Shown: positions 49,401 to 55,400 of the stretch, piece by piece | Numbering within the stretch: the first letter of the stretch is position 1 | How the letters are laid out: each line of letters starts with the position of its first letter | Assembly (NCBI RefSeq): GCF_018320785.1 | Contig: NC_054869.1 | Coordinates: 29,180,289 to 29,244,288, forward strand | Length of the DNA: 64,000 nt | Reading direction: 5' to 3' | Source of the DNA: Cheilinus undulatus | Taxonomy: Eukaryota > Chordata > Actinopteri > Labriformes > Labridae | Program-made: the position numbers and the translations under genes | Notes under the pieces: generated by a model | What the model was told of the DNA's origin: nothing | The model's input: only the letters and a program-made list of their open reading frames with translations | Database searches by the model: none

Positions 49401-52400
49401 GAAACAGAAAGCACATATAGAAGTCATACTGAGTATGAGCCATAGCATAAAAAAACGATTAAACCCTTTCAATTAAAAACATTTTTGTTTACCCTTTGAT
49501 CTGTAGATGATCTAATTCCCTCTTCATCCTCCTGCCCCTGCCGGTTACATGATATAGACTCCTCTTCACTACATTCAGCACATTTCCAGTAGCCTCTGAC
49601 CACATATCCACTGAGCGCTTTACCACGTACTTCTTCAGCTCGTGTTCATTCCCGTAGTACGGGTAAACCATCATCTCACCCTCGGAGTCCCTTCGGAAGA
49701 TCACGTTGGTGCGCAAAACGCGGCTGAGCTCACGCAGGAAGCCGAAGGAGTTGTTGAGGAGCTGCTCTGGGGTGATGTGGACCACTACCACCAGCTGACC
49801 CAGGGCCAGCTTCTCGGGCATGTTATTGGCACAGTCCAGGCCATCCCACTCACACTCAGCGTTGTTGCAGCCCTGGTCGCAGTGGCCATCAGCGTAGTGG
49901 TCTTTACAGTACTGATCATAGAGAGGACTAAAATACAAGACAGAAATTTAGATGTGTTGTTACTGTCATACTATTAAACCTAGCTGTTCCAGTGTGACAA
50001 CTTAGCCTGAATCTTATGACCCATTAGAGTTCAGGATGTACAAAAAGGCAAACTAACGAGAGGATTAATATGGTTTAGTTCACTTGTCTATAAATACAAC
50101 ATCAGGAATTGTTCATATCGAGGTTAAATACCAAACTGTGTCTAAATATTTATGACATTAAAATTACATATGACTACCTCATCAAGGTTTTCTTTTTGGT
50201 TTAGCCTGTCAGGTTGATAAAATGCTCATTTATTTCTATTACACCTGTTGAATGTAAAATAAGCCTCCTTACTTGCACTGTCTTTCCAGATTCTGGCAGT
50301 CAAACCCATCATAGAGACAACCAGCGTTGTCACACTGTGAATCACACTTTCCATCGCTGAAGTATCTCCAGCACTGCAGCGAGTCCGAACAGTTCTTCCA
50401 TGGAGAGTTGAAGTTGAGGGAGCAGTCGCCATTGTCCCAGCCACACGCATGGTTGTTACAGAGCACATCGCACACCTTGTTGTGTTTTGCTTCCTCGCAC
50501 TGCGGGATGTCACAGAAGACTTCCACCTCTGTCGGCGGAAGCGGAATGTCAGTGCCAAATCCTCCGTGGAAGCTGTAATCCAGGATGTGGCAGCGGAGGC
50601 CGTTGAAGTTTGTGGGACAGACGCAGTGGTAGAACGGCGCCTCTGTGGTGTATTCACATGTACCGCCATTGTAGCAGGGGTTGGAGTTACAGGGGCTGTC
50701 GGTGGGATACTGGCACTCAGGTCCGGTGAAGGACGCAGTGCACAGACATTTGGGGCTCTTGTGGCCAGAGATGCAGGTACCGCCATTGCGGCAGTGGAGG
50801 CTGCCACAGGCCTGAGCGTCATATTCACATGTGGAGCCAGTAAAACCCTGTAAGAGGAGAAAAGCAAATGTATTTTGAGCAAGCTAGTTAATACTTTCTC
50901 TAAGAAATGTTCAAATTTACTTTTTAAACTTTAAAACATTATTTATTTATTTAAATTCCTGGTTGGGAATCCTAGCAATACAGTCCTCTTGTAACTTTTA
51001 GTCCTTACAAGATGAGATTTTCATTGAACAGATTTAACAGAAATTGAGGTCATTTGATTTGCAACTCTTTATGGATGGATTTGTAATGCTTTTATTGATC
51101 TAGATGTTCATGTGCTTGCATTGTGGTTATTAACTTCAGATATAGGAACAAAAATCTCTTTAATATTTTCCTAATTGATAAATATGATTTAGAGCTAGGG
51201 TTTGTGTAGTCCCTCATTGAATTATATGATTGTATAAAATGTCCTTAAAATAATAAATCATCTCTGTTTGTATTGAAAGAAGTGTAGGTACTCACAGGAG
51301 GACATTTACAGATGAAGCCATGTGGGGTGTTACTGGCGACAGCACAGGTCCCTCCATTACGACATGGTTTCCCCTTACACCCATCAAACACTGTGTCACA
51401 GCGTTGACCTACAGACCAGTCAGACAAAGAAAACTGTAATCTCTAATTTTTGCATACATATTTGCATATTTTCTATAGTGATTAAATTTTAGAGTATCAC
51501 ATTTTTTCATTATTGATTTACCTTTGTTTCTCAGTATATTGTATGTATATGTGTCAAACAGTTCAAAACATACAGAAAGACTATTTTGAAAAAAGGAAAG
51601 CAGAATCTTTGTTATTGAGACGTTGGATTCAAACTAGTTTTAATCGTTATTCTAGCCCAGTAAAAGCAATGCAGACTAAAGTGAAATCAGGTATATTCTG
51701 CTAGAATAGAAGGAACCTACGGTGGCGTATTGCATTCACTTGAAAATAAAAAAAAAATTCCTCCAGTTTTTACGACATAACTATCACGTAAAAACAGGAA
51801 TTTATTTTTTTTGTAATTTCCGGTTTTTACGAGATACTATCTCATAAAAACAGGAATTTATTTATTTTTGATTTTCCTGTTTTTACAAGATAGTATCTCG
51901 TAAAACAGGAAATTATTTATTTTTGATTTTTCTGTTTTTACGAGATAGTATCTCATAAAAACAGGATGCCCCTGATGCTCTCCTGCATGAATGGTTGCTG
52001 CATTTATCAGCCAGTAATTAGAGGTGCGGGGTTAAGAAGTAGTCAGAATCTTTCAAATCCTGAAAGATGTTGATCCACTGCGTATTGTTTCCTCAAAAAT
52101 CCCCACCAGTTCTCTATGCGTTGGTTATGATTGCTTGAGCCATACAAATAGCAATTTGCTTGAAAACTCATCCACATGATCATGTCTCAGGAATATCTGC
52201 ATCTGCTCCACGTAACAGTTCTCTGTCCCTAGGTCTGATCGAATTCTGTTTTCAGGAGTTACTATCTCATAAAAACAGGAAATTTAAAAACAAATAAATT
52301 TCTTTTTTTTACTAGATAATATCTTGTAAAAACAGGAAATTCAAACATAAATAAATTCCTGTTTTTATGAGATAGTTATGTGGTAAAAACAGGAGGATTT

Positions 52401-55400
52401 TTACTTAAGTGAATGCAATACACCACCGTGGGAACCTAAAGAAAGGTATTAAAAACACAAAATAACTGTAATCCTGAAATGGTATCAGAGCCTGTCAAAC
52501 TGAAAAAGTAAACTCAAGTTGACCCTGCATTTGACTCGAAATCACAACAAACTCTCCCTAAATGTGTTTAGTTTTCTTTTTCACCTGTGTAGCCAGTGCG
52601 ACACTCGCAGCGGTAGTTGTTGGTGAGTTGGATGCAGCTGTGTGTTCCTCTCGGGTCACACGGGTTGGACAGACACTCATTGACGTCTCCCTCACAGCGC
52701 TCTCCTACGTATCCTGCAGGGCATATGCAGTGGTAGCCCCCTACTTTATCCACGCACTTCCCTTTGTTGAAGCACTTTGGCTCATTGGTGACGGGGTCAG
52801 TGAACGGGTTGCAGTCGTCAATGTTGATCTCACAGTGCACACCTGAGGGAATCACAGAAGGTATGATATAGGGAAAAATGTCTCCTTGATGTATGAAAAT
52901 CTTTTCAGTCTATGAGATTCAATGAATTGCCTCATTGTGCAATGTGTTGACTTTTTCACTATTTTGGGGGATACCGTTTTTCTAAATATGCCTCCTCTAC
53001 TCAGCAAGTAATTTAAACATTTCCCAGGATGATAACCACTAAGCTTTTAGTGCTAATTCAACCTGGCTCTCAAAAATGAATGATGCTTGCTATGAATAAA
53101 ATGGACATGACTTCATCATTCTAAAAAATCCAAACTGTGCTATAGATGCATTCAACAACAGTCTGCGTGGTAACAGATAATAGAAAAATTGAATATTTTC
53201 CTATTAACGTCTTTGCCCCTCTAATATTGCATAATAATAATATAGTACGAAGCACTCATCTATTGTTCTTACATTTCCCTCAAAATTATATCTTATTGTA
53301 TGTTATCTATGACTGTAGCTGTATTAGTATTTTCTCAAAATAAATGTTTATTTTAAAAACCAAGACTAAACTAAAATTTGTTAAGTTAAATTTAAAGAGC
53401 AGCCAACATTACATTAATTCTTCAGAAACTAACTCAAACGGTTTAGACATTTTTGAGTAGCTTATTTGTATTACCTTAAAGTCTATACATTCACTTTGGG
53501 AAGACACTGACACCAATGCCAGCATCTGTATTAGTGCTGACAACAAGCCTAAGTTTTTGCACTCATAAAACATATACCATGTTAGAGCATGATGCCTGCC
53601 TCTATTGATTTGCACAGGTAGGCGAATGACTCGTGTCTCTGGGTAGGTGATATTCTAACTTGAATGTGGATATGGAAGACTGCACCCATGCACCACTTAA
53701 TTTTTAAAAGGAAGGATGAAGAAAATCTGGTGACAAAAATAAACTTTGAAAATACTTTAAAGAAATCTAATGGTGTTATAAAGTATTCATATCTGTTCTC
53801 ACTGGGGTAGTACCCAGATAAAATAACTTGTACTTGGTGTGGAAAAAAGTAGTATCAGGGCCTCCTTTTAATTGTAACAGAACCTCTTTTGATAAACACA
53901 TCTTGCAGGGGCAATCTTTAGATAAAAAGACACTTAAAAAACTCAAAATGGAAGGAACAAAAAAGAGCTTGGTGTTTGGTTTTTCAGTTGTGTAAATCAT
54001 TGTGCAAATGTAAGGACAGCTTACAAGCTGGGTGCATACGTAACACTTTCATTTACCCTGCAGTTTTACATTAAAAGGACAGGTTGATGTTAAAAATTTA
54101 AATATAGGGGTGCAGATGGGCTGATGATAATGTTTAGAGGCTAATCCTTCTGAGCCGTGGCTTCTTACCTGCATGACATTCCCCAAAATGCTATCCCTGA
54201 ATTCCCACTCTATCCACTGTCATATCAAATAATGGTATTAAAGCTAAAAGAAAAAGAACAGGAATTCAACTTGGTCCTTCATCTGCGATGTAAAACTCTT
54301 CAGGTAAAAACAGAATTAGCACACAATTTATTATGAAGTTTAAATTATTTTACCATCTGAGTTCTAACTGTAAAATATCCTTGAATGCTTTAAGAATAAT
54401 CATTAAAGTAATCATTTAAAGAAAAATTATAGTGTAATTTCTATATTTTCCAGTCTCTCATCAAAAATACCATCATCAACATGTCTATTTTAGGACACAC
54501 CTCACTCTGCTGGCACTTTAAGCTTACACGTACACACGCACTCCCTTCATGTTTGAGAGAAAAATCAATGTTATATTTGACAAGTAGAGGAAAGAATGGA
54601 GGCAGGACCGGAGGAGGAGTTTTCAGACATGCCCTGGTTGCTGTTGAGCCCTAATTAATGAAGTGTGGAGACAAGGAGGGGTGGATGGAGCGGCAGAGTG
54701 GTGTGGAGGAGTGTGCGTGGGGTCTGCTGACCTTGGGTTCCCCGGGGACAGGAGCATTTGTAGGTATTGATCAGGTCAATGCAGGTGCCCCCGTTCTGGC
54801 ACGGCTGAGAGAAGCACTCATTGATCTCGTCGGAGCAGTTGGTCCCCACGTATCCTGGCATGCACTGAAAGTCGAAAAAGAAACAAGAGAGAAGAAGAAG
54901 ATGCAGAGGGTGAGGAAGAAAAGAAAGGCAGAGGGAGGAGAGGGAGAGAGGAACATTTAATCAATGTCTGACATGAAACAAAAACGCTTTTTGTTTACCT
55001 GGCTGTTTTTCTGGCCCCCCATACTGCCAAGGCCAGCAAATCTTTTATTCAAGGGGAGATTAACACAACCAAGCTGTTTGTTTGCTTTTTTATAAACAGG
55101 CTCTTTATTAGCCTGCTTGGTATCGTATCATCTAACAGGCTGCCTTTTGTATGCCAAGGCATTGTTGACAAACTCATCACAAACTAGAGATTTGAGATTT
55201 TTATTATGTAAAAAGGTGATAAAGGTTTTTTCTTAGTTAGATGATTTGATTTGATCACAAAAAACTCAAATTGCAACTAAAATATCAGAAAAGCTTTCTA
55301 TCCTTTCAAGCAGACATGAAATGGTAAATGTAATGTTTTTGTGTGTCTATAAATCTCAATTTTTCACTGATTTTATACATGTAATTAGTCTATTCAAACT

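Follow-up and report, generated by a model that had tools for sequence, protein, structure and literature searches.

A non-autonomous element with palindromic subterminal arrays beside a notch1-type exon of Cheilinus undulatus is very probably an IS3EU-type transposon

Which transposase moved a short, strongly palindromic insertion that retains only a broken piece of an integrase gene? The insertion lies in a 64,000-nucleotide stretch of Cheilinus undulatus DNA (NC_054869.1, positions 29,180,289 to 29,244,288 of the forward strand; hereafter the window), where it is adjoined by an EGF exon of notch1 type, in agreement with the placement in a notch1 intron given in an earlier note on this DNA. 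That note described a foldback transposon with terminal inverted repeats, seven palindromic units and a frameshifted integrase remnant, and proposed that fish genes annotated as ‘integrase core domain’ proteins are the transposases of a poorly described superfamily. The data presented here indicate that the insertion is a DNA transposon that cannot move itself and very probably belongs to the IS3EU superfamily (IS3EU/GingerRoot).

The element begins with TACGGTGGCGTATTGCATTCACTTGA and closes with the inverse of a nearly identical sequence. The reported terminal inverted repeats are confirmed by a pattern search of the window, which returned two matches in 64 kb where none is expected. The earlier note had also reported an exact 8-bp target duplication, and GGAACCTA is indeed present on both sides, but the real duplication is the 6-bp GGAACC, which is exact in the window copy. 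The TA on the left constitutes the first two bases of the element, while the TA that follows the right GGAACC is flanking sequence, and the 8-bp duplication was rejected because the length is 6 bp across the two-ended copies of the family. The termini of the window copy are TA..TG. An Rfam search gave no match at gathering scores, and the exact 21-base end had no match in viral contigs.

The genome of C. undulatus (1.17 Gb, 46 contigs) contains many relatives of this insertion. Forty candidates were scored and yielded 148 matching stretches (159 in a first look), and the 26-base end, with up to three mismatches, matched at 205 places, compared with none for the reversed pattern. The copies examined comprised 39 fetched stretches and the window (40 loci); both ends were placed in 25 of these, the other 15 having no recognisable pair of ends. 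The 6-bp duplication is exact in 15 of the 25 two-ended copies and matches at five or more of its six bases in 17; over 1,000 trials with shuffled pairings the mean was 1.27 and the highest value 7. TA..TA termini are found in 19 of the 25. In ten further two-ended siblings of 106–988 bp the duplication is exact in four and matches at five or more of six bases in seven; the short siblings consist of the ends and a few units, with little else. Among the 100 listed of the 205 end matches there are 19 neighbouring pairs less than 2.5 kb apart, spanning 106–1931 bp. Divergence of the copies from the family majority in the central part (Kimura two-parameter distance, 39 rows) has a median of 7.0% and ranges from 2.6 to 26.8%, with the window copy at 3.2%. 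Some members (L009:1450-1880, L067, L069 and L075) hold other interior pieces; that of L009 displays a splice-donor-like CAG/GTAAGG on the minus strand and is possibly part of a lost coding element.

Ends and duplications of this type are published marks of IS3EU. Kojima and Bao (PMC10045372) record the superfamily in Repbase since 2013, report that complete families always have TA..TA termini with duplications usually of 6 bp, and place the integrase-like transposase, which lacks HHCC, in one lineage with GingerRoot. Fungal IS3EU elements display TAYGG..CCRTA termini, inverted repeats longer than 30 bp and 6-bp duplications (PMC12730594). By its ends and its duplication the window family conforms to this description; of the transposase it preserves a decayed slice. 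Given these published marks and the Repbase record (PMC10045372, PMC12730594), the superfamily is not undescribed, and this part of the earlier proposal does not stand. IS3EU repeats are also tabulated in a comparison of four teleosts, with 17838 copies in one row (PMC4746887), suggesting that such remnants are ordinary in fish. Within this known superfamily the window family is a new one, although Repbase may already list it. In the part of the literature searched, which excluded Repbase, no statement linking PF24764, the Pfam family discussed below, with IS3EU was found, and a link between IS3EU and foldback elements was likewise absent beyond the word ‘foldback’ in a reference title.

The middle of the element can be read as pieces of an integrase core on the minus strand, and the motifs reported previously were indeed found in three frames. 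This slice takes in the second catalytic Asp and the catalytic Glu, which are separated by 39 residues. A family majority was derived from 43 aligned rows representing 39 distinct copies (rows L048–L051 are second fetches of four copies and are dropped from the 39-row set; L045 was omitted from both sets because its match is too short). The majority reads the first two window segments in one frame of 58 residues, showing that the first frame change of the window slice is missing from the majority, while the second, which falls just after this single-frame stretch, is present there. In Pfam, the 69 residues of the majority slice score 23.4 bits to PF24764 (rva_4, Integrase core domain; expectation value 5.4e-5), slightly short of the curated cut-off of 26. 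The match favours the integrase domain call. The slice is 69% identical to L064, a decayed relative described below, and 60% identical to L063, a coding relative; a search for it in phages gave no match. In one copy (L034 and L076, C6:7505972 to about 7507372), which lacks a recognised left end, the slice lies within a 467-amino-acid open frame that starts in upstream sequence, the scanned part of which has no Pfam match; this is a possible exonised or gene-fused copy. In L046 the slice is split by another element of ∼680 bp (at about 656-1335), which is bounded by inverted ends of its own.

An intact version of the integrase core was found in a larger element. The genome contains 62 matches to PF24764, and 5 of the 13 loci compared are ∼95–99.6% identical over ∼3.3–3.5 kb. 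Two of these five, fetched further, revealed a 12.5-kb element at C6:26789059-26801603 (L077, L080) and on C21 (L078, L081). On both chromosomes homology starts at, or within a few chance bases of, TATGGGAGGCCATTTAGGACAAAA, and these 24 bases recur, exactly inverted, where it ends. The element terminates in TATGG..CCATA, with exact inverted ends TATGGGAGGCC, and is flanked by exact 6-bp duplications that differ between the sites (CTTCTG on C6 and CTTTTT on C21); in the two stretches compared, the copies are 99.3–99.4% identical. An intact open frame within the element encodes a PF24764 core that scores 271 bits. An integrase-core frame of this fish thus lies in a recently moved element with IS3EU-type ends, which supports the earlier suggestion that integrase-core genes are transposases. 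Earlier end-like matches in L052 and L053 were dropped, as they had nine mismatches and the wrong orientation; the true ends came from the comparison of copies, which did not reveal ends for L079 (the L063 place). On the opposite strand the 12.5-kb element contains a HECT-domain piece (L077:6510-6767, minus strand, PF00632, 48 bits). This piece of a HECT-type ubiquitin ligase is a possible cargo gene, and the part of the literature searched contained nothing joining IS3EU and HECT.

The slice in the window element is flanked by two arrays of palindromic units of the TTTTTACGAGATASTATCTCGTAAAAA type, spaced ∼56 bp. The proposed four plus three units were confirmed at the seven starts given in Table 1; when the element was Markov-resampled 100 times, all but one of the resulting sequences lacked any unit and the remaining one contained a single unit, while the window outside the element yielded one unit match at a loose setting and none at a stricter one. 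The single-strand fold, computed on 51718-52431 (one base longer than the element), is −163 kcal/mol, compared with a mean of −62 for 20 shuffles (standard deviation 5.6, z −18). Across the 40 loci the number of units per copy varies from 1 to 14, the window copy having seven. The term foldback is apt for the arms of this transposon, but it describes a shape and not a superfamily.

Table 1. Features of the insertion, in window coordinates.
Feature	Position	Strand	Details
Left target site duplication	51712..51717	.	GGAACC, 6 bp
Whole insertion, non-autonomous element, very probably IS3EU-type	51718..52430	.	713 bp
Left terminal inverted repeat	51718..51743	+	TACGGTGGCGTATTGCATTCACTTGA
Left array, four palindromic units	51767..51961	.	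TTTTTACGAGATASTATCTCGTAAAAA type; starts 51767, 51824, 51880, 51935
Decayed integrase core slice, frameshifted	52020..52247 (lower coordinate approximate)	-	SDLGTEN Asp to NQRIENWW Glu plus ~20 residues
Right array, three palindromic units	52249..52389	.	starts 52249, 52306, 52362
Right terminal inverted repeat	52405..52430	-	terminal TG, against TA in most copies
Right target site duplication	52431..52436	.	GGAACC, 6 bp

The slice could, in principle, have been captured by a foldback or MITE (miniature inverted-repeat transposable element) family to which it is unrelated, and would then be uninformative on the transposase of that family. Such a capture, which we regard as unlikely, is consistent with the several siblings of 106–441 bp that display ends and units without the slice, and with the fact that no integrase longer than residues 210–301 of the L063 frame was seen between these ends. 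In the L063 search the slice-type matches are confined to these residues (21 rows, set aside when distances between ends and integrase matches were determined), and 13 of the 21 lie less than 2 kb from a listed end. The ends and the 6-bp duplication, by contrast, match a superfamily that encodes an integrase-type transposase, and capture is further disfavoured by L064 (C14), where a palindrome array lies between a related end and a sister integrase. The end of this locus, TATGGAAGCATTTTGCATTCACC, agrees with the window end at 18 of 26 bases. It is followed by eight palindrome matches of ATCTCRTAATTAYGAGAT type, arranged as an array, and then by a decayed integrase, interrupted by stops, which extends from FGFSR beyond the Glu as far as FLDKNLVQF. 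In a FastTree tree of 20 of the 24 rows (four were too short) L064 is the sister of the slice, with a local support of 0.945. The earlier note would have taken copies that hold nothing beyond the fragment as a sign of capture; no copy examined with the window-type ends exceeds the slice, while the relative L064 does.

Association of such arrays with integrases extends beyond L064. The integrase of L095 is preceded on its 5′ side by an array similar to that of L064, and that of L100 by a weaker, diverged one. With up to one mismatch, the L064 palindrome occurs at 121 places genome-wide, compared with four for the reversed control. The 50 listed of these 121 matches resolve into 45 places, three of which have an integrase match no more than 1.5 kb away. 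When L064, the source of the pattern, is excluded, 2 of 44 places are near an integrase versus 0.017 expected (binomial P 1.3e-4), in a test that used all 186 integrase matches (62 from PF24764 and 124 from the L063 search; 130 places). Many short matches scattered over the genome cover only residues ∼115–204 of the L063 integrase, which suggests another non-autonomous family with a different integrase slice.

Several observations weigh against placing the window family in IS3EU. No intact integrase with the 26-base ends of the window element was found among the 100 listed of the 205 ends and 165 non-slice integrase matches. The non-slice match nearest to a listed end is ∼4.3 kb away, at L104, where an old integrase fragment accompanies one end; this locus resembles the window element in a single stretch of ∼200 bp. 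The majority slice scores slightly under the PF24764 cut-off, and two peptides from the window slice had no Pfam match when scanned alone. The other end of L064 was not found, and its one recognisable end differs from that of the window at eight bases. The 14 L063-like loci (L090–L103) revealed no convincing end or inverted pair, end-like matches with five mismatches in L091 and L099 being judged to be chance, and 12 of the 14 have no array, among them L099 with a single stray palindrome match. Finally, the 12.5-kb element belongs to the other PF24764 branch (HNQRIERLW versus NQRIENWW in the slice), and its ends differ beyond TAYGG.

Retroviral-like integrases are also used by Ginger1, Ginger2 and Polinton/Maverick elements, and Polintons likewise generate 6-bp duplications (PMC10045372). 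Membership of the window family in one of these groups is nevertheless very unlikely. Ginger1 and Ginger2 duplications are 4–5 bp (PMC10045372), as opposed to 6 bp here. No CxxC or HHCC motif was present in the three frames tested from the coding relatives L063 and L077, whose PF24764 matches pass the curated cut-off (the slice does not include that region), and no Polinton gene was evident in a Pfam scan of ten frames of the 12.5-kb element. The L063 frame had no sequence match in PDB at expectation values up to 1. Elements of the Foldback/Galileo or Mutator type have long arms and 8–9 bp duplications, and although the long inverted arms of repeats, the strong folding and the 8-base match GGAACCTA at this single insertion recall them, such an identity is scarcely credible given a family duplication of 6 bp, TAYGG..CCRTA ends and PF24764 as the sole coding trace found.

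As an IS3EU-type element, the insertion was most likely moved by an enzyme made elsewhere. An IS3EU transposase supplied by another element, with an RNase-H-like DDE core of the PF24764 type, would have excised the element after binding its TAYGG..CCRTA ends and inserted it into target DNA at cuts staggered by 6 bp. Repair of the gaps would have produced the duplication, GGAACC at this site. The family may have arisen from a coding IS3EU element by an internal deletion that left the slice from the second Asp to the Glu with a subterminal array on each side. The units of these arrays would then be inherited subterminal repeats, most likely offering additional places for the transposase or a host factor to bind; their number may drift through unequal exchange or slippage, and the inverted arrangement of the arrays would produce the foldback shape. 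We infer cut-and-paste in trans, origin by deletion and a binding role for the palindromes.

A broader but tentative proposal, which we consider possible without favouring it, is that the fish IS3EU branch with NQRIE-x-WW integrases carries subterminal ATCTCGTA/TACGAGAT palindrome arrays that provide the transposase with multiple binding sites, the foldback MITEs and many AT-rich 21-bp and 56-bp palindromic arrays in the genome of C. undulatus being the shed ends of this branch. If this is true, array length may tune mobility. Taken singly the finding is mainly one of annotation. Its wider interest is that the anatomy of one recently moved element ties anonymous PF24764 ‘integrase core domain’ genes of this fish to a named transposon superfamily, and that the window family provides a concrete case for asking whether transposases use subterminal palindrome arrays as sites.

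The 12.5-kb PF24764 element resembles the window family in its TAYGG-type ends (TATGG..CCATA), 6-bp duplication and PF24764 core. It differs in belonging to the HNQRIERLW branch, in its end beyond TAYGG and in the HECT-domain piece, and inside its left end there are CA-rich repeats in place of the palindromic repeats of the window family. With IS3EU/GingerRoot the window family shares TAYGG..CCRTA ends and a 6-bp duplication; an integrase-like DDE transposase without HHCC would be a further likeness, to judge from the decayed slice and the frames of coding relatives. In contrast to IS3EU elements generally, it is non-autonomous and carries palindromic subterminal arrays, although such arrays may already be in print. 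Foldback elements and MITEs are characterized by long inverted arms built of repeats, small size and many copies. The likeness of the window family to these elements is structural only, while its duplication and ends place it in IS3EU.

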